Below, piece by piece: positions 1,081 to 12,685 of a DNA stretch of 12,812 bases (positions within the stretch are counted from its first letter, which is position 1; every line of letters starts with the position of its first letter). The position numbers and the translations under genes were made by a program. Source of the stretch: Nitrospinae bacterium RIFCSPLOWO2_12_FULL_45_22 (GTDB taxonomy: Bacteria; 2-12-FULL-45-22); contig MHDQ01000054.1 in NCBI GenBank assembly GCA_001803565.1, positions 1 through 12,812 of the forward strand, read 5' to 3'. Under the pieces are notes generated by a model that was not told where the DNA came from, searched no databases, and saw nothing but the letters and a program-made list of their open reading frames with translations.

Positions 1081-2271
1081 GTGGGTATAAAGACTAAGGT
1101 GGTTCATATCATTACCCGGCTGGATAAGGGAGGGTCGGCTGAAAATACCTTGCTTACCGCCTCTCTCATGGACAAAGAGAGGTATGAGGTATTCCTGATC
1201 AGGGGACTTTCACTAGAATCAGACATGAGCCCCGCCGAGAGTGATGTCCTGGGGTATGACCTGACTCGGGCAGAAGCCAGGGGTGTCAGGGTATTCACTA
1301 TCCCTTCATTGGTACGACGCTTATCCCCCATAGATGACCTCCGCGCCTTTATTAGTATCTACCGGCTATTGAAAGAGATCAAGCCCAGGATAGTCCATAC
1401 CCATACCTCCAAGGCCGGCATATTGGGCCGCTGGGCCGCTTACCTGGCCCGTGTTCCTATAATTATCCATACCCCTCACGGCCATGTCTTTTATGGATAC
1501 TTTGGCCGGCCCTTGACGAGAATCTTTATCTTATTGGAGCGGTACTCCTCCTATATAACCGATAAAATTGTGACCTTGACCGATAAAGAAGGAGAAGAGC
1601 ATCTACAATCTAAGATCGCTCCTAAAGCCAAGTTTATTACAATTCATAGTGGAGTATTACTGGAGAGATATTCTCCTTCCAACATAAACCAGATAGATAT
1701 TAACGGGCTTAAAGCACAATTGGGGCTCTCTAATGAGGTAGCCATTGTGGGGACGGTAGGGCGATTGGCCCCGGTGAAAGGGCATGAGTATTTCATTAAG
1801 GCAGCCGGGAAGATTTTGAAAAATTTCCCTGAGACCAGGTTTTTATTGATTGGTGAGGGAGAATTAAGAAGTTATCTGGAAGGTCTGTGTTTAGAGTTAG
1901 GTATTTCTCAGCAGGTACTTTTTTTGGGCTGGAGAGATGATATTCCTGCCTTACTCGCGCTCATGGATGTCTTTGTCTTGCCTTCTTTGAATGAAGGAAT
2001 GGGAAGGGTTCTTGTTGAGGCCATGGCGGTAGGCAAACCTATTGTGGCCTTCCGGGTAGGCGGCATTCCTAACCTTATCCAGGATAGGGAGAATGGGATA
2101 CTGGTTCTGCCGAAAGATATCGAGGGCTTAGCCCGGGCTATCACTACCCTTTTAGCCAGTAGGACTTTAATGGAAGAGCTGAGGGCAAAAGGGACGGCCA
2201 AGGCCCCTCTTTACAGTGCAGAGAATATGGTGCAGAAAATAGAGGCCCTTTATGAAGCTTTACTTAAATAA
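1081..2271 (+). CDS. Family 4 glycosyltransferase (GT-B fold)
   Basis: A retaining glycosyltransferase, expected to move a sugar from a nucleotide-sugar donor to a lipid-linked or polysaccharide acceptor at the inner face of the membrane. The N-terminal Rossmann half begins VVHIITRLDKGGSAENT and holds HTHTSKAGILGRWAA and HTPHGHVFYGY. The C-terminal donor-binding half has TVGRLAPVKGHEYFIKAA, then VLFLGWRDDIPALLALMDVF. It ends with the EX7E motif in NEGMGRVLVEAM (E305 and E313). At 396 aa the length is normal for the family. The start is GTG at 1081, with only a weak GGG at 1071-1073 upstream. The reading frame is open back to the PIN stop, but the known fold begins at KVVHIITRL, so the GTG start fits. 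The gene overlaps the next one by 20 nt, so they are probably co-transcribed. The sugar specificity is unknown. Confidence 0.93.
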   Translation: MGIKTKVVHIITRLDKGGSAENTLLTASLMDKERYEVFLIRGLSLESDMSPAESDVLGYDLTRAEARGVRVFTIPSLVRRLSPIDDLRAFISIYRLLKEIKPRIVHTHTSKAGILGRWAAYLARVPIIIHTPHGHVFYGYFGRPLTRIFILLERYSSYITDKIVTLTDKEGEEHLQSKIAPKAKFITIHSGVLLERYSPSNINQIDINGLKAQLGLSNEVAIVGTVGRLAPVKGHEYFIKAAGKILKNFPETRFLLIGEGELRSYLEGLCLELGISQQVLFLGWRDDIPALLALMDVFVLPSLNEGMGRVLVEAMAVGKPIVAFRVGGIPNLIQDRENGILVLPKDIEGLARAITTLLASRTLMEELRAKGTAKAPLYSAENMVQKIEALYEALLK

Positions 2272-3718
2272 ACCTTGTTTATATGCCTTTGCTACTTTGT
2301 GCCTTTCTGTATCTCTTTTTCTCAATCCTTCCTTAGCCGCTCCACCACCGGCCTATATTCAGTTGGCGGGTTTGATAGACCTGCGCTCTACCTTTAGTGA
2401 TGGTGAATTATCCTTAGAGACCCTGGTAAGGAGGGCAAAAGAGCGTGGCTTTGAAGTAGTAGTGATTAACGATCATGACCGAATGGCTATGGAGTATGGG
2501 CTGTTCCCTTTCCGGAAGATATTGAAAAAACGCGAGGAAAGACCTTCTATTCTTAAGCTGGGTGCGGATAAATACCTGCAGGCGATAAAACAGATTGCCC
2601 AGCATTACCCCGATATGATCCTTATCCCTGGGGCTGAATCGGCGCCTTTTTACTATTGGACGGGTAGTTATCTTAGGGGAACCCTTACGGCCCATAACTG
2701 GGAGAGACACCTGCTCATTATTGGTCTGGAAGACCCACAGGATTACCAACATCTCCCTCTCCTTCATAACGGCTTTTCTACGCACTACTTCAGACAGTTG
2801 TTGCCTGGGAGTATGATATTTTTGATTCCTCTATGCCTGAGCCCCTTCTTGATACTGAGGAAGGGAAGCTATAGGTTTATGGGTATTACAATCCTGTTGC
2901 TCTCTTCACTAATGTTGATAGAATCCCATCCCTTCAAGGGCTCCCCCTTTGACCAGTATCACGGAGATCAAGGGATTTCTCCTTATCAAGAGCTGATTGA
3001 TTATGTTAGGAGCCGTGGTGGGATGACCTTCTGGAATCATCCGGAGACCAGGTCTGGCATAGCGCGAAAAGGCCCTATCCAGGTAAATACCCCTCCTCAT
3101 CCTGAGGTATTAATAGAGAGTAAAGGATATACCGGATTTGCAGTTGTCTATGGAGATAGAATCACGGTCACAGAACCTGGTCATGAGTGGGATAAGCTCC
3201 TGATAGACTACTGTCGGGCTAAGAGAGCCGATCCTCCATGGGGTATATCGTCGGCTGATTTTCATGGGGAAGGCGAGGCTGGGGAGAAACTGGGTAATTT
3301 CCCTACTATATTTCTAGTTAAGAGTAAGACCAAAGAGGAAGTGCTCAGGGCCTTCGAGCAAGGCAGGATGTATGCCTGCCGGGCAGGAGACAATTTCCGC
3401 CGGTTCGTATTGGAAGATTTCTCGGTCTCTGACCCCACAACGGGCTCCTGGGGCACTCTGGGAGAGACTATCATCTCTAAGAGTAAACCAAGAATAAGGA
3501 TTAAGATTTTGTCTTCAGACCAGAGGCGATATGATATTAGGATAAGGATTATTCGTTCTGGCAAACTGATAAATACTTTTTCTGGAACTACACCCCTGGC
3601 AGTTAACTTTTCTGATGATTATTTTCAGCCTGGGGAGCAGGTCTACTACCGGATAGACATCCCCGGTGTACTGGTCTCCAATCCCGTCTTTGTGAGGTTC
3701 AGTCAGGATAGACAATGA
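2252..3718 (+). CDS. Exported/membrane PHP-domain protein with altered metal site
   Basis: PHP-superfamily protein of 488 aa, a family of metal-dependent phosphoesterases. Residues 1-30 form a signal peptide or signal anchor (KPCLYAFATLCLSVSLFL, then SLAAPP), so the protein probably acts outside the cytoplasm. Family motifs follow in order: RSTFSDGE at 45-52, NDHD with H75, GAESAP with E129, WNHPE with H263, and SADFHG with D336 and H338. Two hydrophobic stretches at 188-202 and 210-223 split the domain and look like a membrane hairpin inserted between the third and fourth motifs. The usual first motif HxH is replaced by D43-L-R45, removing two normal metal ligands, so the catalytic state is uncertain. 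The ATG lies inside the glycosyltransferase gene, which suggests coupled translation and a shared role in envelope polysaccharide work. The C-terminal 110 residues look like a beta-rich domain that I do not recognise. Confidence 0.8.
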   Translation: MKLYLNKPCLYAFATLCLSVSLFLNPSLAAPPPAYIQLAGLIDLRSTFSDGELSLETLVRRAKERGFEVVVINDHDRMAMEYGLFPFRKILKKREERPSILKLGADKYLQAIKQIAQHYPDMILIPGAESAPFYYWTGSYLRGTLTAHNWERHLLIIGLEDPQDYQHLPLLHNGFSTHYFRQLLPGSMIFLIPLCLSPFLILRKGSYRFMGITILLLSSLMLIESHPFKGSPFDQYHGDQGISPYQELIDYVRSRGGMTFWNHPETRSGIARKGPIQVNTPPHPEVLIESKGYTGFAVVYGDRITVTEPGHEWDKLLIDYCRAKRADPPWGISSADFHGEGEAGEKLGNFPTIFLVKSKTKEEVLRAFEQGRMYACRAGDNFRRFVLEDFSVSDPTTGSWGTLGETIISKSKPRIRIKILSSDQRRYDIRIRIIRSGKLINTFSGTTPLAVNFSDDYFQPGEQVYYRIDIPGVLVSNPVFVRFSQDRQ

Positions 3719-3836
3719 TAAGCAGGTATTTACTCTTGTATCTGTCCCCTCCAAGGGCCCTTAGCTCTTCCGTTAAAATTTCCCCAATATAAAGAAGCCC
3801 CCCAGGAATAAGCCCCCCAATTAGCTGGAGTTTCTT

Positions 3837-3870
3837 TTACCACTAAGCACACAGAGATAACAGAGAAGAC
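3837..3870 (+). repeat. Degenerate cacagag-type mini-repeat
   Basis: The stretch reads ACCACTAAGCACACAGAG and then ATAACAGAGAAGAC. It is one of four related tracts in this window (also near 5449, 6330 and 7977) built on variants of 'accac.aagcacacagag'. Such tracts are common interspersed repeats in environmental bacterial genomes. Their function is unknown. Confidence 0.5.
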
Positions 3871-3890
3871 TATTCTCTGGCCTCTTTGAA

Positions 3891-3917
3891 GTGTGGGAGT
3901 TGCGTAGTGTGGGAGTT
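3891..3917 (+). repeat. Tandem 11-bp direct repeat
   Basis: GTGTGGGAGTT occurs at 3891-3901 and again at 3907-3917, separated by 5 nt. The approximate reverse complement appears just downstream (AACTCTCCCAC at 3947-3957), so the repeats can pair with the segment leading into the following hairpin. Confidence 0.55.
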
Positions 3918-3931
3918 TGCGGACCCCCTTC

Positions 3932-3985
3932 AACCCTTACTCCCTAACTCTCCCACTCCTTAACTTCCTGGAGTGGTGAAGGGTT
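3932..3985 (+). terminator. Nested stem-loop, possible transcription terminator
   Basis: The outer arms AACCCTT (3932-3938) and AAGGGTT (3979-3985) enclose an inner 7-bp stem, CCACTCC (3953-3959) pairing with GGAGTGG (3970-3976). An A-run and then TTATTTTTCTTTT follow (about 3986-4006). The T-rich tract is not immediately adjacent to the stem, so this is not a textbook intrinsic terminator. It could equally be a repeat-derived hairpin. Its place after the PHP gene and before a separate cassette fits a transcript boundary. Confidence 0.35.
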
Positions 3986-4122
3986 AAAAAAATTATTTTT
4001 CTTTTGTCAAATTGTTAACTACTTTTGCTGGATGCCCTTAACTTTATAGAAAATTTTCCGAAAAGAATACTAGAAAAAGAAAAAAAGACTTTAGTTGGGT
4101 ATAAAAAAGGGGAAGCCGAGCA

Positions 4123-4836
4123 ATGATTGTAGGAATTCACCAACCTCAATATCTACCCTGGTTAGGCTATTTTGACAAAATAGATAGGTCAGATGTTTTT
4201 GTTATCCTGGACAATGTCCAGTATAAAAAAAATGAGTGGCAAAACCGGAACCGGATAAAGACTGCTCAGAGATGGCAATGGATTACCGTACCGGTCTTAT
4301 ATCACTTCCCTCAAAGGATAAATGAGGTAAAGGTTGCTAACGGCGAGTCATGGAACAGAAAGCACCTTAATACCCTGCTTACCAATTATCATAAGGCCCA
4401 TTACTTCCATGAGTACCTACCTTTTTTTGAAGATGCCTATGCACATACCTGGGAATATCTGGCAGATGTAAATATCCACCTCATAAAATACTTTATAGAT
4501 GCTATTGGTATCAAGACTGAGTTGGTATTGGCCTCTCAATTAAGATTAAGAGAAGACCCCACAGAGAGATTAGTAGATATCTGCAAGGCCGTAGGGGCAG
4601 ATACTTATCTTTCAGGCAGAGATGGTGACAAATATATGGACCTGAGCAAGTTTTGGGCCGAGGGTATTGATGTAGTCTTCCAGGGTTTTTACCATCCGGT
4701 TTATGACCAGTTGTTTGGAGAGTTCGAACCGAATATGTCTGTAGTTGACCTTCTCTTTAACTATGGCCCACAAAGTTTAGAGCTTATAAGGAGAGAAAGA
4801 GATGAATATCCTGGCTTTGGGGTCCCATCCCGATGA
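4123..4836 (+). CDS. WbqC-like protein
   Basis: A WbqC-family protein of 237 aa. The family is found in O-antigen and exopolysaccharide clusters. It is thought to be enzymatic, in amino-sugar or glycan modification, but its reaction is poorly defined. The hallmark N-terminus is seen at once: IVGIHQPQYLPWLGYFDKI, then VFVILDNVQYKKNEWQNRNR and WQWITVPV. The C-terminal half has the usual YLSGRDGDKYMD and VVFQGFYHPVYDQ. Length and both ends match the family, so the ATG at 4123 is sound. A modest AGGGGA-like site (about 4108-4114) precedes it. The gene overlaps the next by 35 nt, so WbqC and the deacetylase are probably made together. This is the first gene after a 404-bp gap and may head a transcript that runs through the aminotransferase and sugar transferase. 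Confidence 0.92.
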   Translation: MIVGIHQPQYLPWLGYFDKIDRSDVFVILDNVQYKKNEWQNRNRIKTAQRWQWITVPVLYHFPQRINEVKVANGESWNRKHLNTLLTNYHKAHYFHEYLPFFEDAYAHTWEYLADVNIHLIKYFIDAIGIKTELVLASQLRLREDPTERLVDICKAVGADTYLSGRDGDKYMDLSKFWAEGIDVVFQGFYHPVYDQLFGEFEPNMSVVDLLFNYGPQSLELIRRERDEYPGFGVPSR

Positions 4837-5422
4837 TATTGAATTTGGTTGTGCCGGGACCCTCTTACGGTTCAGCCAAAAGGGTCATGCTGTCTACTTG
4901 ATGGTCCTTACTTATGGTGAAATGGGGGGTGAGAAGGAGCAAAGGTGCCAGGAGCAGATGGTTTCATCCAGGATACTTAGAGCCCAGGATGTTTTCTGGG
5001 GGGGCTACGCCGATACTGGGATCAACTTGAATAATGGATTAATTACTCACGTAGAGAGGGTTTTAGCCCGGATAAGACCTGATTTTATTTTTGTTAACTA
5101 TTTTGAAGATACTCACCAGGACCATCGCTATCTGGCTCAGGCCACTATCTCGGCAACCCGATACATCAAAAATGTACTCTTCTATGAAGTACCTACTACC
5201 CAAAACTTTACCCCTAATGTCTTTGTAGAGATAGGGGATGTCCTGGAGCAGAAGATGTCCTCACTAGAGGCCCATACCTCTCAGGTCTTAAAGACAAATA
5301 TTGAGGATATGTCTATCAGTGAGATAGCCAGGTCCTGTGCCAACTTTCGTGGGATTCAGGGACGGGTGAAACATGCTGAAGGGTTCGTCTCTCTGCGGTT
5401 ATTCGTAAATATCCCTCACTGA
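4802..5422 (+). CDS. PIG-L/LmbE-family deacetylase
   Basis: Zinc-dependent N-acetyl-sugar deacetylase of the PIG-L/LmbE fold, 206 aa. Family members remove acetyl groups from N-acetylglucosamine in lipid-linked or conjugated glycans. The zinc site is clear: HPDDIEFGCAGT near the start (H9, D11, D12) and DTHQDH further on (H105 and H108). The NILALGSHPDD start is typical for the family. The start codon is inside the WbqC gene and has AAGGAG (4788-4793) 8 nt upstream, which is strong support. Working with WbqC, the DegT aminotransferase and the WecA-like transferase, it fits a pathway making an amino sugar for a surface glycan. The actual substrate cannot be read from sequence. The protein is slightly short but shows no sign of truncation. 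Confidence 0.92.
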   Translation: MNILALGSHPDDIEFGCAGTLLRFSQKGHAVYLMVLTYGEMGGEKEQRCQEQMVSSRILRAQDVFWGGYADTGINLNNGLITHVERVLARIRPDFIFVNYFEDTHQDHRYLAQATISATRYIKNVLFYEVPTTQNFTPNVFVEIGDVLEQKMSSLEAHTSQVLKTNIEDMSISEIARSCANFRGIQGRVKHAEGFVSLRLFVNIPH

Positions 5423-5448
5423 AAGAAATAAACTTTTGCTAACTCTTC

Positions 5449-5482
5449 AGCCACGAAGTGACCCTAAGGAGCACTAAAAGGT
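5449..5482 (+). repeat. Degenerate cacgaag-type mini-repeat
   Basis: The stretch CAGCCACGAAGTGACC and then CTAAGGAGCACTAAAAGG resembles the 'ccacgaagtcacgaag' variant of the cacagag family. It fills most of the 70-bp gap before the aminotransferase and supplies the AAAGG (5477-5481) that may serve as that gene's weak ribosome binding site. The match to the family is by eye. Confidence 0.35.
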
Positions 5483-5492
5483 AATTATCACT

Positions 5493-6710
5493 ATGATTGC
5501 CCACTCTAAGCCTACTTTGAATGGAGAAGATTTTTCTGCCGTTGAGGAGGTATTACGTTCCGGCAACATTGCTCAAGGCGCCAAAGTAGTTCAATTAGAA
5601 GAGAATATGGCTGGATTTATTGGGGCTAAAGCAGAAGGGGTAGCGGTAAGCTCGGGGACTGCTGCTCTGCACCTGGCCTTAAAGGCCCTCAAGGTAGGAA
5701 AGGGGGATGAGGTAATCTTGCCCAGTTATGTCTGCACTGCCCTATTGAATGCTATAAATTATGAGGGTGCTAAACCAGTCCTGGCAGACATATGTCCTGA
5801 TTCCTTTAATCTGGACGTTTCTGCCGCAAAGAAGGCCCTTAGTAAAAATACCAGGGCCATAATCCTACCTCATCTATCTGGCCTGCCCGCCGATATAGAG
5901 GAATTTCTTACGCTGGGTGTCCCACTGATTGAAGATTGTGCCCAGGCCCTGGGGGCCACTTACCGGGGAAGGATGGTGGGAGGTCTTAGTACTTTCTCCA
6001 TCTTCTCCTTTTATGCTACCAAACTCATTACTACCGGCGGAGGGGGGATGCTCTTTTCTGATTCTCAAAAGTTACTGGATGAAGTCCGGGATCTGCGGGA
6101 ATACGATAATAGGGATGACTACCGGGTACGGTATAACTATAAGCTGACCGATCTCCAGGCTGCCTTAGGGCTGTCTCAACTAGAGAGGTTGCCTTCTTTT
6201 TTAGCCCGACGGAGAGAGATTGCTCAACGATACACGGAGGCAATGCAGCACATTCCTGTTGTTTTACCGCGGGCCTATCCTGACCGGGAGCATATTTATT
6301 ATCGTTATGTTATTAGGATAGATGGGATAGAGGCACAGAGGCACAGAGTTACAAAGGTACGGAGCGATAAAGAGGAATTAGGGAGATATCTGGAACTTTT
6401 GCATAGAAAGGGGATTGGGTGTCAGAGGCCGGTCTACCGGCCCCTCCATCATTACCTGGGGCTGAGGGGTTTTCCTATAACCGACAAAGTATGGCAGACT
6501 GCCCTCTCCCTTCCTATCTACCCTTCCCTCACGGATGATGAACAGGAAAAGATAATTAGTGAAGTAGAAGAAATAATCAACCCCTGTTGTGGTGATCACC
6601 ACAATCCCAAATTATGCAAGATTCCCGGCATGTCATTGCGAGGCTTGTCCCGAGCCGAAGTCCCGAGTGAAACAAGGGAGCAAGCGAGGGAACTCGACAA
6701 AGCAATCTGA
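5493..6710 (+). CDS. DegT/DnrJ/EryC1/StrS sugar aminotransferase
   Basis: PLP-dependent aminotransferase of the DegT/StrS family, which transfers an amino group to a keto sugar nucleotide. Family signs in order: an opening PTLNGEDFSAVEEVLRSGNI, VSSGTAALHLALKAL for phosphate binding, EVILPSYVCTALLNAI, IEDCAQALGA, and the Schiff-base lysine K177 in FSFYATKLITTGGGG. The closing LPIYPSLTDDEQEKIISEVEEII usually marks the end of the protein. The 405-aa product is longer than it should be for two reasons. An in-frame cacagag-type tract encodes about residues 280-292 (IEAQRHRVTKVRSD). About 40 extra residues also follow EEII, the last 26 read from a hairpin repeat that supplies the stop codon. The core looks intact, so it is probably still active. 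The ATG at 5493 has only AAAGG 11 nt upstream. It acts with its WbqC and deacetylase neighbours. Confidence 0.92.
   Translation: MIAHSKPTLNGEDFSAVEEVLRSGNIAQGAKVVQLEENMAGFIGAKAEGVAVSSGTAALHLALKALKVGKGDEVILPSYVCTALLNAINYEGAKPVLADICPDSFNLDVSAAKKALSKNTRAIILPHLSGLPADIEEFLTLGVPLIEDCAQALGATYRGRMVGGLSTFSIFSFYATKLITTGGGGMLFSDSQKLLDEVRDLREYDNRDDYRVRYNYKLTDLQAALGLSQLERLPSFLARRREIAQRYTEAMQHIPVVLPRAYPDREHIYYRYVIRIDGIEAQRHRVTKVRSDKEELGRYLELLHRKGIGCQRPVYRPLHHYLGLRGFPITDKVWQTALSLPIYPSLTDDEQEKIISEVEEIINPCCGDHHNPKLCKIPGMSLRGLSRAEVPSETREQARELDKAI
6330..6365 (+). repeat. cacagag-type repeat inside the aminotransferase
   Basis: GAGGCACAGAGGCACAGAG, then TTACAAAGGTACGGAG, is a clear member of the interspersed cacagag family. 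It sits within coding sequence at a point where DegT-family proteins normally pass straight from the 'YRYVIRID' strand to 'KEELGRYLELL'. The insertion keeps the frame and encodes a basic loop. Confidence 0.65.
6587..6604. repeat. Perfect 18-bp palindrome
   Basis: TTGTGGTGATCACCACAA reads identically on both strands. It falls just after the conserved end of the aminotransferase (EEII) and before the hairpin element at 6632, inside sequence that is probably not part of the ancestral protein. It could fold into a cruciform or mark an insertion junction. Confidence 0.6.
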
Positions 6711-6746
6711 TCGCTTATAGATTGCTTCGCTAAGGCTCGCAATGAC
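6632..6746. repeat. 115-bp hairpin element bounded by GTCATTGCGAG
   Basis: The ends are perfect 11-bp inverted repeats, GTCATTGCGAG (6632-6642) and CTCGCAATGAC (6736-6746). Inside is a second 9-bp stem, AAGCAATCT (6700-6708) with AGATTGCTT (6719-6727). This architecture is a familiar interspersed palindromic repeat of environmental bacterial genomes ('cattgcgag...gaagcaatct'). The aminotransferase stop (TGA, 6708-6710) lies within it. It could also shape the 3' end of the transcript. No transposase is nearby. Confidence 0.8.
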
Positions 6747-6813
6747 CATTCCCTGGAAGGATGTTTGAAATGAACCTGCATAATTTGGGAGAAGTTTAGA
6801 AGGATAATGAATA

Positions 6814-8004
6814 ATGGAAAAGAGTAAGCCTGGATATTTCTGGAAATCATTTTATATCCTGGTATCCTTGCTGTTGCTTTTGCTGGCAGCTCCACCGGTA
6901 AGGGGTTGGTGGTTCCAGGGGGGAGGTAGATGGTTCTATATCTTCCTATTCTCTTTTTGCCTCTCCTATCTGCTTACCCCTTTATCCCGCTATATTGCAA
7001 TGAAGCTTGGTATCATGGACTATCCTGATGCCAGGAAGATACATTCAAAGCCAACCCCACTCCTTGGAGGGATCGCTGTCTATCTGGCTTTTTTGGGTGC
7101 TATTCTGGTCAATTATATTTTTGACCAGAAGGTAGGGGCCATACTCCTAGGGGGTGCTTTATTGGTAGCTGTCGGGGTTTGGGACGATTATAAGGGGGCT
7201 CCTGCCGGGAGCAAGCTCTTGGTCCAAATTCTTGCTACCCTGTTACTCGTCAAATCCGGGATTGTGCTCAACTTTTTTCCTGCTGCCACAACCGTGGGGG
7301 CAATAGGGAACATATTATTGACCCTCCTCTGGGTAATAGGGATCACCAATGCCTTCAACTTCTTTGATGGGATGGATGGGCTGGCTACCGGCCTGGGGGC
7401 AATTATTGCCGCGTTCCTGGGGATCATAGCCTTTCAGACCTTTCAACCATTCCTTGGTTGGTTATCCGCCGCTATTGTAGGGAGCTGCCTGGGCTTCTTC
7501 CCCTATAATTTTAGGCTCCGCCAGCCAGCCTCTATTTTTCTGGGGGATACAGGCAGCGTATTCCTGGGTTTTGTGCTGGCTTCCCTGGCGGTTATGGGAG
7601 AATGGGCCGACAACGCCCCCTTTGTCTCGCTAACCAACCCAATACTTATATTTGGGGTGCTGATCTTTGACATGATCTATATCACAGTCTCAAGAATCTA
7701 TTCTAAAAAGGTAGTCAATTTTAGACAATGGATCAGTTATGTGGGTAAAGATCATCTCCATCACCGGCTAAACTCTGTCCTTAAAAACTGCAAGAGCACG
7801 GTGATATTTATATTCTTTTTGAGTACCACATTAGGAATAGGTGCCCTGGCCCTGAGAAATGCCCAGATTGTTGATGCCCTTTTATTGATTTCTCAGGCCG
7901 CCATCATACTGGTCCTGGTGACGGTGCTGGAGAGGGCTGCATCAATTATTACCAGGATTAAGGAATGGCAAAAAGAACCAAAGTCACAAAGATATAGCGG
8001 CTGA
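6814..8004 (+). CDS. WecA/MraY-family polyprenyl-phosphate sugar-1-phosphate transferase
   Basis: A polytopic membrane enzyme that moves an (N-acetyl)hexosamine-1-phosphate from UDP-sugar to undecaprenyl phosphate, the first step in lipid-linked glycan synthesis. Motifs: PDARKIHSKPTPLLGG in the first cytoplasmic loop, D124-D125 in VWDDYKG, NAFNFFDGMDGL with D185 and D188, FLGDTGS with D245, and the cytoplasmic DHLHHRL (313-319) typical of the WecA branch rather than MraY. Hydrophobic segments recur along the full length, roughly ten to eleven. At 396 aa the size is normal. The ATG at 6814 has AGAAGGA (6798-6804) 9 nt upstream. The last residues (EPKSQRYSG) resemble a translated mini-repeat and are probably an added tail. 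It should start the glycan completed by the sugar enzymes upstream. The exact sugar is unknown. Confidence 0.93.
   Translation: MEKSKPGYFWKSFYILVSLLLLLLAAPPVRGWWFQGGGRWFYIFLFSFCLSYLLTPLSRYIAMKLGIMDYPDARKIHSKPTPLLGGIAVYLAFLGAILVNYIFDQKVGAILLGGALLVAVGVWDDYKGAPAGSKLLVQILATLLLVKSGIVLNFFPAATTVGAIGNILLTLLWVIGITNAFNFFDGMDGLATGLGAIIAAFLGIIAFQTFQPFLGWLSAAIVGSCLGFFPYNFRLRQPASIFLGDTGSVFLGFVLASLAVMGEWADNAPFVSLTNPILIFGVLIFDMIYITVSRIYSKKVVNFRQWISYVGKDHLHHRLNSVLKNCKSTVIFIFFLSTTLGIGALALRNAQIVDALLLISQAAIILVLVTVLERAASIITRIKEWQKEPKSQRYSG
7977..8000 (+). repeat. Degenerate cacaaag-type mini-repeat at gene end
   Basis: ACCAAAGTCACAAAGATATA followed by GCGG resembles the interspersed 'accaaagtcacaaag' variant of the cacagag family. 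It encodes the final residues of the sugar-phosphate transferase just before its stop. The similarity is short and judged by eye. Confidence 0.35.
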
Positions 8005-8024
8005 TGTGAATTTCAAGCAACCAT

Positions 8025-8066
8025 TGATCCCTACTACAATCGGGGTAACGATTGATTGCCGGATCA
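8025..8066 (+). promoter_or_regulatory. Weak nested hairpin before the PqqD gene
   Basis: TGATCC (8025-8030) can pair with GGATCA (8061-8066), and inside CAATC (8037-8041) with GATTG (8050-8054). The structure fills the 90-bp gap between the sugar transferase and the peptide-maturation genes. It might be a terminator or leader structure, but there is no T-tract and the stems are short. Confidence 0.2.
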
Positions 8067-8094
8067 GGTCTGCAAGAGAGGGGGTTAATGCCTA

Positions 8095-8385
8095 ATGGAT
8101 TTTCTGGAAAAGGCCTATAAGAAAAGTGATTCTATTGTCTTTAGAAAGATAGCTGACGAGGTTATTTTAGTTCCGATAAGGCAAAATGTTGGTGATCTGG
8201 AAAGTATTTATACATTAAATGGGACCGCTACGCGTATCTGGGAACTGATGGATGGGAAAATAAAAGTTCGAGAGATAAAGGAGAAGATAGTTGAGGAATT
8301 TGAAGTAGCGCCTGAAGAAGCAGGAAAAGATTTAATGGAGTATTTACAGCAATTAGAGAAAGTATCGGCGATAATCGAAGGGTGA
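8095..8385 (+). CDS. PqqD-family leader-peptide-binding protein
   Basis: A 96-aa PqqD-like protein. In peptide-modification pathways these small winged-helix domains (RiPP recognition elements) bind the leader of the precursor and hand it to a radical SAM enzyme. The family signature is clear: IVFRKIADEVILVPIR, then an acidic GDLESIYTLNGTATRIWELMDG, then a helical region VREIKEKIVEEF and EEAGKDLMEYLQQLEK. Length and form are standard. The ATG at 8095 follows an AGAGAGGGGG tract (8075-8084). It sits 4 nt upstream of the radical SAM gene and two genes before the candidate precursor peptide, the expected arrangement. PqqD-like proteins also accompany HPr-kinase-like proteins in polysaccharide loci, so a role outside RiPP synthesis is possible, but the adjacent SPASM enzyme and peptide favour maturation. 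Confidence 0.9.
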   Translation: MDFLEKAYKKSDSIVFRKIADEVILVPIRQNVGDLESIYTLNGTATRIWELMDGKIKVREIKEKIVEEFEVAPEEAGKDLMEYLQQLEKVSAIIEG

Positions 8386-8389
8386 AGCT

Positions 8390-9493
8390 ATGGAATGTCC
8401 CCATATACCAGCTATTAGCTATACTGAGTTTGATGAATTGTTGTATAAGCAGGTCGTAGCAAAGAGAATCCCAATTAATGGATCATTTGAGCTTACCTTC
8501 CGCTGTAATCTGCGCTGTGCTCATTGCTATTGCAACTTGTCCCTGAATGATCAAGATGCCATCAACAAGGAACTATCTACTGAAGAGATATTTGATATCT
8601 TTGATCAGATGGCAGATGCTGGGTGTCTGTGGCTGTTGCTAACCGGGGGGGAACCGTTGGTGCGGAAGGATTTTTTAGAAATCTATACTTACGCCAAGAA
8701 AAAAGGCTTCATTATCACCCTATTTACCAATGGGACACTCATTACTCCGGAGATTGCCGATTACCTGGCTGAATGGCCACCATTTGCGGTGGAGATAACC
8801 TTATATGGTGCTACTAAAGAGACCTATGAGAAAGTAACTGGAGTCGCTGGTTCATTTAAGCGCTGTAAAAGAGGCATTGACTTACTATTAGAGCGAAAAA
8901 TTCCTTTGGGGTTGAAGACCATGATGATGACCTTAAATCGAGATGAGCTCTGGCAAATAAAAGAATATGCTGAGGGATTAGGCGTGAAGTTTCGTTTTGA
9001 TCCCATATTCAACCCCCGGCTGGATGGCTCTAAAACCCCTTATAATTTCAGGCTATCACCGGAAGAGGTGGTAAAATTGGATTTAGCTGATGAAAAAAGA
9101 ACGAAAGAATGGCAGAGGTTATGTGATAAGTTTTCCGGGTCTCCTTCATCTGACGATCTTTACCTCTGTGGCGCTGGAATTTCCGCATTCCATATCAATC
9201 CCTACGGGAAAATGAGCGTATGTGAGATGTCTCGTTTTCAGAATTATGACTTGCAGCGTGGTTCCTTTGAAGAGGGTTGGTATCAATCTATCCCTGAGTT
9301 TTTGACGCTAAAAGCTAAGGATGATTACCCATGCGCTCAGTGCGACTTGAGCGACCTATGTGGTCAATGCCCGGGTTGGTCATGGTTGGAGGCGGGCAAT
9401 GCCGAAACCCCGGTTGAATATCTCTGCCAGGTAGCCCATCTGCGGGCAGAGGCATTTAGCCCAAGGAAACCCTCAAAAAATGAAGGGAGGTAA
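8390..9493 (+). CDS. Radical SAM/SPASM peptide maturase
   Basis: A 367-aa radical S-adenosylmethionine enzyme with a C-terminal SPASM domain. The SAM-binding 4Fe-4S cluster motif is CNLRCAHC (C39, C43, C46), followed by LLLTGGEPLVRKDF (the GGE that binds SAM). The SPASM cysteines are C260 and C278 in a CX12GX4C pattern, then C315, C318, C324 and C327, with a last one at C346. They would hold auxiliary clusters. Enzymes of this kind make thioether or carbon-carbon crosslinks in ribosomal peptides. A PqqD protein immediately upstream and a small Cys-rich peptide gene immediately downstream point to that role. The final codons (GGGAGG before TAA) double as the ribosome binding site of the peptide gene. 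The bond it makes cannot be read from sequence. An anaerobic sulfatase-maturase-like function is a less likely alternative. Confidence 0.93.
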   Translation: MECPHIPAISYTEFDELLYKQVVAKRIPINGSFELTFRCNLRCAHCYCNLSLNDQDAINKELSTEEIFDIFDQMADAGCLWLLLTGGEPLVRKDFLEIYTYAKKKGFIITLFTNGTLITPEIADYLAEWPPFAVEITLYGATKETYEKVTGVAGSFKRCKRGIDLLLERKIPLGLKTMMMTLNRDELWQIKEYAEGLGVKFRFDPIFNPRLDGSKTPYNFRLSPEEVVKLDLADEKRTKEWQRLCDKFSGSPSSDDLYLCGAGISAFHINPYGKMSVCEMSRFQNYDLQRGSFEEGWYQSIPEFLTLKAKDDYPCAQCDLSDLCGQCPGWSWLEAGNAETPVEYLCQVAHLRAEAFSPRKPSKNEGR

Positions 9494-9495
9494 AA

Positions 9496-9669
9496 ATGGA
9501 GAGCAGAGAAAAGCCCCGGAAATGCTATATAAAACCTCAAATAAATCAAGTCATGTTGAAGATCGAGGAAGCGGTCCTGGCAGGTTGTAAGACAGGCGCA
9601 GGCGCGCCAGGGGTGACAAATAAGAATTGTGATCATGCTCAATGCAAGAGAAGTGTTTATGGTTCATAG
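9496..9669 (+). CDS. Candidate RiPP precursor peptide (57 aa)
   Basis: A short peptide gene that standard length cut-offs would miss. The ATG at 9496 is preceded by GGGAGG (9485-9490) with 5-nt spacing, one of the best ribosome binding sites in the window, and lies 2 nt after the radical SAM stop. The basic N-terminal half reads MESREKPRKCYIKPQINQ, then an amphipathic, acidic VMLKIEEAVLAGCK as a probable recognition leader. The C-terminal half is Gly/Ala/Asn-rich with three cysteines: C31 in AGCKTGAGAPG, and C45 and C50 in NKNCDHAQCKRSVYGS. A fourth Cys, C10, is in the leader. Position, size and layout fit a substrate of the adjacent PqqD and SPASM proteins, with thioether bonds likely at the C-terminal cysteines. 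I recognise the 'KPxhxxhxLxhEEAVLxxC' pattern only loosely from other small uncharacterised peptides. No function is known. Confidence 0.75.
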   Translation: MESREKPRKCYIKPQINQVMLKIEEAVLAGCKTGAGAPGVTNKNCDHAQCKRSVYGS

Positions 9670-9694: not shown

Positions 9695-9772
9695 ATGTCA
9701 TATCGACCGAAGGGAGATATCTTTCTAACCCACTGTTGCAAATAAGATTTCTCGCTTCGCTCGAAATGACAT
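9695..9772. repeat. 78-bp hairpin element, GTCATTTCGAG family (copy B)
   Basis: The ends are ATGTCATATCGA (9695-9706) and TCGAAATGACAT (9761-9772), inverted repeats with one mismatch. The interior carries CCGAAGGGAGATATCTTT on the left and AGATTTCTCGCTTCGCTCG on the right. Both halves match the reverse complement of the element at 12572-12694, so this is the same family in opposite orientation. It fills much of the gap between the peptide gene and the kinase-like gene. Confidence 0.75.
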
Positions 9773-9834: not shown

Positions 9835-10716
9835 GTGGTGGTAAATGAAGAGGGACTAAGGGAAGTGACGGTAGGTATCGCTGGTATCGGTATATCTTTT
9901 CTCTTCGGTCAAAACCTTTTTGGATGTGGACTTAAAGATATCAAGGATGATTTTGTTACAGACAATAGCGCTGAAGTAAAGCTTCGGGTGCATCATGGCG
10001 GTATTCCCGGAAAGAGACCTGAAAAAAAGATATTCGATTCCGGCAGCACCTGGTCACTCTACTGCAATGGGGGAAAATACGTCTTGCAGGATTGTTCCTT
10101 TGAACCTGATTTACTTCCTGAAAGAATTGTGGTCTTAGAATCTGATTTCAAATCTGGTGACATATACATGAGGAATGGTGTGTTCAATCAAAACCTTCTC
10201 CCCGATCCGTTAGGATATCCCTTGAATCAGGTTTTGATGATAATGCTCCTATCCCGTTCCAGAGGGATGTTGCTGCATGCGTGCGGTATTGATGATAATG
10301 GTAATGGGTATCTTTTTTTAGGTAATTCAACCCATGGAAAGTCAACCATCTCCAGATTGTGGTTTGAGAACCAGGCGACAGTTCTTAATGATGATAGAAT
10401 TATCGTAAGGGAAAAAGATGAAGAGCTTTGGATGTATGGGACACCATGGCATGGGGCTTTTAAGGAGGTGTCGCCTAAAGGACTACCGATCCGCAAGGTA
10501 TTCTTCTTGGGTCATGGAGAAAGGAATTCTGCGGTTCCCAAAAAGTATGCAGAGGCAGCTTCAATGTTTTTAACCCGGTGTTTTCCTCCATTCTGGGATA
10601 AAAAAGGGATGGAGTATACTGTCGGTTTATCCCACCGCATAATAAGTAAGATACCCTGTTATGAACTAAATTTTGTGCCAGATAAAGAAATTATCAGTTT
10701 CGTAAGGAATATATAA
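9835..10716 (+). CDS. HPr kinase-like P-loop protein
   Basis: A 293-aa protein with the HPr kinase/PEPCK-like nucleotide-binding fold in its C-terminal half. Key features: LLHACGI (the 'LHA' preceding the P-loop in this family), the Walker A loop GNSTHGKST (163-171, K169), and VLNDDRIIV with D186 and D187, which would bind Mg2+ or act as base. GTPWHG follows. The N-terminal half is a divergent domain (FLFGQNLFGCGL, then TWSLYCNGGKYVL) of unknown role. The P-loop departs from the usual GxSGxGKS. The start is GTG at 9835 with AGGGGG (9821-9826) 8 nt upstream; GTG at 9838 is possible. HPr-kinase-like proteins appear beside PqqD proteins in polysaccharide loci and as peptide-phosphorylating enzymes in some lasso-peptide clusters. 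Here the neighbouring peptide is a candidate substrate, though that is inference. It is not the global PTS regulator, since no HPr or PTS gene is near. Confidence 0.82.
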   Translation: MVVNEEGLREVTVGIAGIGISFLFGQNLFGCGLKDIKDDFVTDNSAEVKLRVHHGGIPGKRPEKKIFDSGSTWSLYCNGGKYVLQDCSFEPDLLPERIVVLESDFKSGDIYMRNGVFNQNLLPDPLGYPLNQVLMIMLLSRSRGMLLHACGIDDNGNGYLFLGNSTHGKSTISRLWFENQATVLNDDRIIVREKDEELWMYGTPWHGAFKEVSPKGLPIRKVFFLGHGERNSAVPKKYAEAASMFLTRCFPPFWDKKGMEYTVGLSHRIISKIPCYELNFVPDKEIISFVRNI

Positions 10717-10720
10717 ATAA

Positions 10721-11227
10721 GTGAGAAAGAGTGTTAATTTAGGAATAACTGACTTATTAGAATTAAGCCAGGCTATCCTTGAAAAAGGCAACTCAATCCG
10801 CTTTCAAGCCAAAGGCTGGAGTATGCGCCCTTTTATTCAAGATGGAGATTTTATAATCGTGAGCCCGGTTCAAAATTCCTCTATTAAAAAAGGAGATGTG
10901 GTATTTTATTCCACTGATGAAAATAAGGCTATTGTTCATCGCATTATTAAAAAATATAAAAACAATGGCACAACGACATTTCTCATTAAAGGGGATGCCT
11001 CTTTTGGCCTCCCTGAAAGGGTTGATATACGGAACATATTGGGCAAGGTGACCGCAATTGAAAGAAAGGGGTGGAAAAAGAGATTAGATACAAAGTTTTA
11101 TCGGGTAATTGGTTTGCTCTTTGCGGGAATATCTCCCTTCAGCCGCTGGACTTATCTAATCGGGAGCCGAGTTAAGCACAGCGGCCGCAGACTGCTGGGC
11201 TTTCGTCAGATATCAATACCTCAATAA
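10721..11227 (+). CDS. S24/S26-family peptidase, soluble form
   Basis: A 168-aa peptidase of the S24/S26 clan. Catalytic Ser34 lies in KGWSMRPFIQDGDFIIV (the SMxPxxxxGD signature) and His73 in IVHRIIKK. A Ser-His arrangement is seen in SipW-like enzymes, rather than the Ser-Lys dyad of standard leader peptidase. FLIKGDASFG fits the next conserved box. No obvious membrane anchor is present at the N-terminus, and the only hydrophobic stretch is a short one near 125-133 (VIGLLFAGI), so it may act on a cytoplasmic substrate. The start is GTG at 10721, 4 nt after the kinase-like gene's stop, with no strong ribosome binding site, implying coupling. In this locus it could remove the leader of the peptide encoded at 9496-9669. 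Processing of an exported protein is the alternative. Its substrate is not shown by the sequence. Confidence 0.85.
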   Translation: MRKSVNLGITDLLELSQAILEKGNSIRFQAKGWSMRPFIQDGDFIIVSPVQNSSIKKGDVVFYSTDENKAIVHRIIKKYKNNGTTTFLIKGDASFGLPERVDIRNILGKVTAIERKGWKKRLDTKFYRVIGLLFAGISPFSRWTYLIGSRVKHSGRRLLGFRQISIPQ

Positions 11228-11350: not shown

Positions 11351-12685
11351 TTGACCTGGACAAACGAGGATCGCTTAATGCTTTATTGTTGCCAAGCTAA
11401 TATTGGCAACAGCGATACAGATGAACTAATTGATACACAAAGAAACGGAATAGATTGGGGGTATTTTCTAAAAAAGGCGAGAACAGAAGGCATCTCGCCT
11501 CTAATTTATCACCGGCTTCAAAAAGTTGTTATAAGTAAGAATAATATCCCCAAGGATGTGATAGAAGAGCTAAAAAAAGATTATTATCTGAGTGCCACTA
11601 AAAATACCTTAATTTTTAAGGAGTTAGGAAAGCTCCTTGAGGCATGTAATAAAGTCGGGCTTCAGGTAATAGTCCTTAAAGGGGCGGCATTGGCGGAAAC
11701 CGTATATGAGAATCTAGCTTTGCGGCCAATGTCAGATATAGACCTGCTGGTAAGAAAAGAAGACCTGTTGTCCCTTGATAAACAGTTAAAGACGCTGGGC
11801 TATTGGCCATCTGATAGATCAGTTGACGATATTGACTTATATTCTCCATCATATCTGACCACCCTTGATTATAGAAATTCTTCCAATAATTCTCCTTCTT
11901 TTCATATCCACTGGCATTTTGTCAATTCCACCATTCCCAATGACTCTTATATCAAGGATATTCCAATTGAAAATATATGGCGGGATGCTGAAAAAACCAG
12001 GATTGCCCAGGTAGAAACCCAGGTGATGGTCCCTCACCACCTTATCATACACCTCTCAGAACATGCCTTAAGAGTTACGCACTCTCTGAGCAAATTTTGC
12101 TTCTTTTGTGATATCAATGAAGCGATCACTTTTTACCAGGAAAGATTGGATTGGGATAAGCTGCTTAGAGAGAGCGATAAGTTCAACCTTAGTAGAATGG
12201 TCTATTTAAGCCTATATTTTGCTGGTAAATTCCTGGCAACGAGGATACCCCATGATGTTTTATTAAAGCTAAGACCAAAACGGTTTACCCTAGGCGAAAA
12301 GCTCTTTATAAATTCTATATCAAACAATGACCGCTCTCCGGGCTTAAGCTACCTAGTCCATCTGTCCATGAACAAAGGGTTATTTAGGAAGATGAGATTT
12401 GTCTGGAGGACATTATTCCCTCCGCGTCAAATCATAGCCCAAAGAAGCTATATCCCTCAATCAAGAGTCAGTCCTATGAATTATCTTCGGCGGATTAAGG
12501 AGGTTTTTTCGCACTTTTTTAAGATGGTAATTATTTTAGGGAAGAACTTCCGCAGGAAACCATGGAAAACTTGTAACAGTTCATGTTCTTTGTCATTTCG
12601 AGCACAGCGAGAAATCTTTCCGAGACCGGAGGTAAATAAAGATTCCTCCCTTCGGTCGGAAACATTTATCTTCGATAGGGGCTGA
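11351..12685 (+). CDS. Nucleotidyltransferase-family protein (NTP_transf_5-like)
   Basis: A 444-aa protein resembling the uncharacterised nucleotidyltransferase family often found in lasso-peptide, RiPP and exopolysaccharide loci. The core motif is IVLKGAALAETVYENLALRPMSDIDLLVR, where D129 and D131 give the DxD metal site after KGxxL. A histidine-rich HIHWHFVN and VPHHLIIHLSEHALRV follow, as in the family. The start is TTG at 11351, supported by AGGAG (11339-11343) 7 nt upstream; ATG at 11378 is the fallback. From about residue 408 the sequence (CNSSCSLSFRAQREIFP and onward) is translated repeat DNA, so the ancestral protein was probably about 400 aa and has gained about 37 residues. The 92-bp inverted repeat upstream separates it from the peptidase gene. 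It may modify the peptide or a sugar, but its reaction is unknown. Confidence 0.82.
   Translation: MTWTNEDRLMLYCCQANIGNSDTDELIDTQRNGIDWGYFLKKARTEGISPLIYHRLQKVVISKNNIPKDVIEELKKDYYLSATKNTLIFKELGKLLEACNKVGLQVIVLKGAALAETVYENLALRPMSDIDLLVRKEDLLSLDKQLKTLGYWPSDRSVDDIDLYSPSYLTTLDYRNSSNNSPSFHIHWHFVNSTIPNDSYIKDIPIENIWRDAEKTRIAQVETQVMVPHHLIIHLSEHALRVTHSLSKFCFFCDINEAITFYQERLDWDKLLRESDKFNLSRMVYLSLYFAGKFLATRIPHDVLLKLRPKRFTLGEKLFINSISNNDRSPGLSYLVHLSMNKGLFRKMRFVWRTLFPPRQIIAQRSYIPQSRVSPMNYLRRIKEVFSHFFKMVIILGKNFRRKPWKTCNSSCSLSFRAQREIFPRPEVNKDSSLRSETFIFDRG

Follow-up and report, generated by a model that had tools for sequence, protein, structure and literature searches.

A widespread family of Cys-rich precursor peptides that accompanies radical SAM/SPASM maturases and is probably phosphorylated at its C terminus

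Introduction

Several described systems share enzymes with the locus reported here. In the linear polyphosphorylated peptide (LPP) system of Paenibacillus alginolyticus (LppA/B/K/S/N), described in 2026, the set of RiPP recognition element (RRE), HprK-like protein and signal peptidase I (SpI) has been linked experimentally to precursor phosphorylation and leader removal, the archaeal-type signal peptidase removing the leader and the HprK-like kinase carrying out (poly)phosphorylation; the target of LppK is an internal Ser, and Thr at that site is rejected (PMC13381572). LppA is cleaved after T−1, with a proline at P−13, and RREs bind [Y/W]xxP leaders, lasso and LPP RREs alike recognising a YxxP-type motif (PMC13381572). 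The kinases of phosphorylated lasso peptides carry a His-Lys-Asp-Asp residue set (PMC9266682), and a polysaccharide-locus setting is reported for both LPP and paeninodin clusters. A PqqD-like protein, an HprK-like protein and a radical SAM/SPASM enzyme occur together in SynChlorMet systems (NCBIfam TIGR04248-04251: ScmC, ScmD, ScmE, ScmF), and a SPASM maturase acts with a Cys-rich core in sactipeptides and ranthipeptides (SkfB, SuiB, CteB and PapB types).

Here we describe a precursor peptide gene in a 12,812 nt stretch of DNA (the window), which is the whole of contig MHDQ01000054.1 (C54) of Nitrospinae bacterium RIFCSPLOWO2_12_FULL_45_22, a source genome that is incomplete (3.67 Mb, 321 contigs). 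The family to which it belongs is widespread and apparently undescribed, occurs in uncultured phyla with few characterised RiPPs, and has a simple motif usable for mining.

Results and Discussion

The precursor gene

The gene lies at 9496–9669 on the forward strand, with its ATG at 9496 and its stop codon at 9667–9669, and encodes the 57-residue product MESREKPRKCYIKPQINQVMLKIEEAVLAGCKTGAGAPGVTNKNCDHAQCKRSVYGS. A Shine–Dalgarno sequence, GGGAGG (9485–9490, +), overlaps the last two codons of the maturase gene and lies 5 nt 5′ of the ATG; since the maturase stop codon TAA occupies 9491–9493, the gap between the two genes is 2 nt, and with the peptide start directly behind the maturase gene translation is probably coupled. 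A preliminary description of this DNA had proposed the same 57-codon reading frame, a strong ribosome-binding site inside the 3′ end of the maturase gene, a 2 nt gap, and Cys residues at positions 31, 45 and 50, and it is borne out on every one of these points, the three Cys residues all falling in the core. It mentioned neither the YxxPxI motif (Y11, P14, I16) nor the near-invariant C-terminal Ser; there is also an extra, non-conserved Cys10 in the leader. The homologues and the selection described below confirm that the ORF is a real gene, and its product is a RiPP precursor.

No RNA family was matched at the peptide gene in an Rfam search, and scans for promoters and terminators gave results at chance level only. 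A dispersed repeat, GATTTCTCGCTTCGCTCGAAATGAC, is present in the window at 9746–9770 and 12592–12616, and the genome contains seven exact copies of a 21 nt part of it. Between the peptide and kinase genes a hairpin is predicted, of which the 9746 copy forms part.

Neighbouring enzymes

The apparent operon has the order PqqD-like protein, radical SAM/SPASM enzyme, peptide, HprK-like kinase, signal peptidase I-like protein and NTP_transf_5 protein, and the predicted catalytic residues of every enzyme are intact. The PqqD-like RRE (8095–8385, +; PF05402, E=5e-16) has as its nearest solved structure by sequence the lasso RRE TbiB1 (E=6e-5), and its gene is found at 65 of 68 loci. Its conserved residues N42 (86%) and D79 (95%) may be the equivalents of LppB N33 and D70. 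The radical SAM/SPASM maturase (8390–9493, +; PF04055, E=5e-25) carries a CX3CX2C motif (C39, C43, C46) and seven SPASM Cys residues (C260, C278, C315, C318, C324, C327, C346), all 100% conserved; its predicted structure (pLDDT 92) has PqqE, SkfB, BlsE and SuiB as nearest folds, and SkfB is the top sequence match among solved structures.

Downstream of the peptide is an HprK-like protein (9835–10716, +), a candidate C-terminal Ser kinase on the basis of its conserved residues and predicted fold: H148, K169, D186 and D187 are conserved at 94–100%, the AlphaFold model (pLDDT 90) has the fold of the PEPCK/HprK superfamily, and the kinase profile matches HprK structures (E=4e-5). The HprK gene lies downstream in all 70 testable loci. 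An archaeal-type signal peptidase I-like protein (10721–11227, +; TIGR02228, 65 bits, above the cut-off), the candidate leader peptidase, has conserved S34, H73 and D92 and is encoded at 58 of 69 loci. The NTP_transf_5 nucleotidyltransferase (11351–12685, +; PF14907, E=5e-46), whose D129xD131 motif is 96% conserved, would be an optional tailoring enzyme; it is present at only 18 of the 52 loci with 4 kb downstream, most being without it. No transporter is universal among the loci. Elsewhere in the window there are polysaccharide-type genes at 1081–8004 (a glycosyltransferase, a PHP protein, a deacetylase, a DegT aminotransferase and a WecA-like protein) and, at 263–999, a pair made up of a Phd/YefM-like antitoxin and a PIN-domain toxin.

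Homologues and pairing with the maturase

When public genomes were scanned with an alignment of the maturase family (that of window 8390–9493), 80 loci were recovered, 75 of which have a homologous peptide, usually no more than about 30 nt from the stop codon of the maturase gene. A profile built from eleven peptides (those of the window, its C258 paralogue and G039, and eight from G043) picked out 72 homologues from the 23,134 short reading frames at these loci, including the G039 peptide used in training (L068); the best unrelated frame had E=0.66, and three further peptides sit inside longer reading frames. The submitted names for the 80 loci include Desulfobacterota, Acidobacteriota/Aminicenantes, Nitrospirota, Omnitrophota, KSB1, WOR-3, Cloacimonadales, Aerophobetes, Desantisbacteria, Clostridia, Myxococcales, Nitrospinae and others, and the peptide-bearing loci carry about a dozen phylum labels. 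Two loci (L077, L093) are labelled as a 'Bordetella parapertussis' MAG, which gives the impression of a mislabelled environmental bin. The peptide is absent from L074, L075, L080, L092 and L125; the DNA covering the last three has neither a PqqD nor an HprK gene, which suggests that the peptide travels with that set.

An independent survey of 386 genomes gave the same picture. The peptide profile matches 17 of them and the maturase profile (threshold E<=1e-90) 14, all within the 17, so that the peptide is found in 14/14 genomes with a close maturase vs 3/372 others (Fisher p=5e-23, a value inflated by relatedness; nearly all these genomes are from different families). One of the three (G379) has a maturase at E=6.5e-90 about 110 nt 5′ of the peptide, one (G046) has weaker maturases only, and the third (G066) is a marginal peptide match with no maturase. 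Only a few peptide-bearing genomes are without a SPASM maturase, and the window has one. Several weak matches (E > 0.01) from a first, single-sequence survey were judged to be due to chance, and a search of a plasmid collection returned only distant maturases and kinases.

Leader and maturase distances are correlated (r=0.68). A second cluster in the window's own genome (C258) encodes the peptide MNKKSDNSKKDRKHYHKPQLTRIRLVIEEARWETCKPAPDCVSHGPITRNPGS together with HprK, peptidase, PqqD and SPASM genes, and G039 has the full gene set in unchanged order, plus two inserted genes. We note one cluster (L175 of G240, 7302–9615) with two precursors, both with a Gly-Thr end. The peptide and the maturase are paired, and the earlier proposal that the peptide is the substrate of the adjacent PqqD and SPASM proteins, for which an absence of homologues beside related maturases had been named in advance as contrary evidence, is supported by the homologues at 75 of the 80 loci.

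Selection on the peptide

Substitutions were compared between peptide pairs at least 60% identical. In the leader pS is 0.67 and pN 0.16, and in the core 0.73 and 0.32 respectively; among the eight G043 copies, core pS is 0.76 and pN 0.035. The peptide frame therefore encodes a protein under constraint. Substitution patterns showing no selection on the amino acid sequence had likewise been put forward beforehand as grounds for abandoning the gene, and pN is far below pS in both parts.

Leader and core

The anatomy of the family was examined in 87 peptides, comprising those of the 75 loci, the window and C258 and ten from the survey. They follow the motif Y-x-x-P-x-[ILV]...L-x-P-E-E-A-V-L-x-x-C-K, usually with two more Cys residues and a C-terminal Gly-Ser, and in each of the 87 the first core Cys follows the leader Tyr at a spacing of exactly 20 residues. 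The leader motif Y11-I-K-P14-Q-I16 (9526–9543, +) is the predicted RRE (PqqD) binding site, conserved as YxxPx[ILV]: Tyr is present in 86/87 peptides (Phe once), Pro in 87/87 and [ILVAM] at +5 in 85/87. The EEAVL segment (9565–9579, +) has invariant spacing and contains the predicted cleavage site after A26 (9573/9574), placed there because it lies at the same 12-residue distance from the proline as the LppA site; L21 is kept in 83 of the 87 peptides, E25 in 84, A26 in 76, V27 in 79 and L28 in 82.

The core (9586–9666, +) contains C31-K32, C45, C50 and the C-terminal G56-S57. Both C31 and K32 are kept in 87/87 peptides, exactly three core Cys residues occur in 79/87 (a few have only two), the pattern is mostly C-x12-C-x4-6-C, and the three Cys positions are better conserved than the remaining core. 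Conservation of EEAVLxxC, as anticipated in the preliminary description, is evident from these counts; of its second element, CxxxxC, the later Cys pair is conserved and the spacing is not fixed, mostly with 4–6 residues between. The final residue is Ser in 83 peptides, Thr in three and Leu in one, a count that may be slightly biased by the inclusion of terminal residues in the profiles that found the peptides; Ser makes up only 14% inside cores, and six additional, more distant survey peptides all end in Ser or Thr. The sole member without terminal Ser/Thr (L095, 8645–8800), which ends in Leu, looks truncated in the core, which stops short and gives way to repeat-like DNA, apparently inserted.

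A proposed pathway

The chemistry that we infer for this pair starts from homology with described systems. The PqqD-like RRE would bind the leader strand YxxPx[ILV], which would present C31-K32, with its fixed 20-residue spacing from the Tyr, to the SPASM enzyme; this enzyme would then cross-link the core Cys residues, most likely as thioethers. The HprK-like kinase would phosphorylate the C-terminal Ser (S57) in the manner of the lasso peptide kinases PadeK and PsmK, NTP_transf_5, where present, may decorate the phosphate with a sugar or nucleotide, like PsmN, and the signal peptidase-like protein would remove the leader, probably after EEA. We regard this overall scheme of an RRE-bound leader, SPASM-cross-linked Cys residues, a phosphorylated C-terminal Ser and a leader removed by the peptidase as likely. 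It makes sharp predictions, naming residues Y11, P14, C31, C45, C50 and S57 and cleavage after A26.

The neighbouring kinase probably phosphorylates the terminal Ser/Thr. S57 is the candidate site by virtue of the near-invariant terminal Ser/Thr rather than the presence of a kinase: LppK acts on an internal Ser, and PqqD/HprK/radical SAM clusters of a SynChlorMet-type locus and of C138 have candidate precursors that lack a C-terminal Ser, so that the kinase by itself does not predict the site. C138 is a contig of the same genome as the window and carries a third PqqD/HprK/peptidase/radical SAM cluster (L007, G000:C138, 2343–5833), in which another short ORF, MKRKYVKPEIKSERLEATSLAGTCACSGDDVGSFIIDAVNNWLSGG, immediately follows the radical SAM gene.

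Dispersed precursors

In G043 the rSAM-PqqD-HprK-peptidase operon (L140, G043:C4) has no adjacent precursor, and at least eight full precursor copies and two partial matches are found on other contigs (L036–L041 among the loci). The same arrangement seems to hold in G188, with three copies, and in G320, with two (L170–L174); their cores include CKNDLGAGPNQSQCLIPQCFNGGS, and the cores of the precursors in these three genomes are nearly identical. With an operon lacking a precursor and the precursors elsewhere, one maturase appears to serve dispersed precursors. Five of six tested neighbour genes in G043 encode beta-propeller repeat proteins (RCC1, SBBP, LVIVD), which are probably secreted, and these genomes suggest a role other than that of a classical bacteriocin. 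On balance we favour the broader view that across about a dozen phyla a single precursor is both cross-linked at Cys by the radical SAM enzyme and phosphorylated, perhaps also glycosylated, at its C-terminal Ser, and that in G043, G188 and G320 one operon serves many dispersed precursors.

Alternative readings

There is an appreciable chance that the peptide is the SPASM substrate and that the chemistry is other than thioether formation, such as a C–C or C–O cross-link, an epimerisation or another Cys-derived change, since relatives with the same fold (SuiB, EpeE, ChlB, TigE) perform chemistry of other kinds. The three conserved Cys residues and the closest profile match, to the sactisynthase SkfB, favour sulfur chemistry and are not decisive.

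It is unlikely that the product is a linear phosphopeptide of the LPP kind and that the radical SAM enzyme has another target in the polysaccharide locus. Such a reading would account for the RRE/HprK/SpI/NTP set, which makes up the greater part of the core set of LPP (PMC13381572), and polysaccharide loci house both LPP and the window cluster; yet it leaves aside the peptide's presence at nearly all maturase loci in many phyla, the co-divergence of leader and maturase and the preferential conservation of Cys 31, 45 and 50, and LPP leaders are described as HQxIxFET, not EEAVLxxCK.

We also think it improbable that the peptide is the source of a redox cofactor like PQQ or mycofactocin rather than a cross-linked, exported peptide. 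The SPASM maturase is partnered by PqqD and has fold and profile matches to PqqE and the mycofactocin maturase, and the G043/G188/G320 lineage has an almost invariant core and one maturase for many loci. Against this, cores differ strongly between genomes (the pN of 0.32 given above), keeping only the Cys residues and the C terminus, the window is without PQQ or mycofactocin downstream genes, and a C-terminal Ser with a kinase has no known role in those pathways.

A small lipoprotein, as might be read from the resemblance of VLAGC to a lipobox and a weak TrbK lipoprotein match (E=0.018, under the cut-off), is very improbable and already contradicted: there is no hydrophobic signal segment in the sequence, charged EE stands just N-terminal to the site, the residues before the Cys are often GH, GN, GF or QG, many of them unfit for a lipobox, the Cys is always followed by Lys, and the peptide is linked with PqqD and the maturase. 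That the ORF merely spans a gene junction by chance, as its shortness and a longer antisense frame at 9364–9642 might suggest, is refuted by homologues across many phyla, strong purifying selection in the peptide's frame and the lack of an Rfam RNA at the site.

Comparison with known systems

Scans of the window peptide and 40 family members against Pfam and NCBIfam gave no meaningful match, the only hits being single weak ones (TrbK, 0.018; StsA, 0.0027), and a text search with motif strings found no paper describing the family within a limited selection of the literature. As in SPASM-modified RiPPs with a discrete RRE, there is a conserved adjacent precursor (75/80 loci; 14/14 genomes), a maturase with CX3CX2C and SPASM Cys residues, and a YxxPx[ILV] leader motif with a PqqD protein predicted to bind it. 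Sactipeptides and ranthipeptides differ from the present family, which has a separate PqqD RRE, an accompanying kinase, its own Cys pattern and a putative cross-link. With SynChlorMet the likeness is in gene content, whereas none of the window proteins comes near its curated cut-off (PqqD 29.7 vs 100 bits, rSAM 91 vs 400, HprK 31 vs 125), and short ORF candidates beside ScmC matches have neither EEAVLxxCK nor a terminal Ser; one SynChlorMet-type candidate, MKYEKPELKSLNLKNPEPKSPNDEKIETAGGDVCTEGGNAGTCNIGYDDGHLTGG, lies near an ScmC gene (L182, 2449–2661, −).

The family shares with LPP the discrete RRE, HprK-like kinase and archaeal-type signal peptidase I, the RRE + HprK + SpI set that marks LPP being present, as well as the NTP transferase, the YxxP leader and the polysaccharide-locus setting, and the LPP spacing would place cleavage after EEA in the window peptide. 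However, LPP is reported to be restricted to Bacillota (PMC13381572), its core set is without a radical SAM enzyme or further core-modifying enzyme, and it is phosphorylated at core Ser3 and not at a C-terminal Ser; of the LPP leader YxxPxVLxHQxIxFETxxS only YxxPx[hydrophobic] is common to both, HQxIxFET being absent from the 87 peptides. With the paeninodin and pseudomycoidin lasso systems (PadeK, PsmK, PsmN; PMC9266682) it has in common the HprK-like kinase with His-Lys-Asp-Asp, the NTP transferase and the discrete RRE, and the C-terminal Ser that is the phospho-acceptor there has its counterpart in terminal Ser/Thr in 86/87 members, with kinase residues intact. Unlike lasso clusters, however, the window encodes neither a macrolactam synthetase nor a B2 cysteine peptidase, and has instead a SPASM maturase together with a Cys-rich core. 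The family departs in a defining feature from each of LPP, phosphorylated lasso peptides and SynChlorMet, and we file it as a new family of SPASM-matured, probably C-terminally phosphorylated RiPPs, one that would join SPASM cross-linking and HprK-type C-terminal phosphorylation, two logics known separately.
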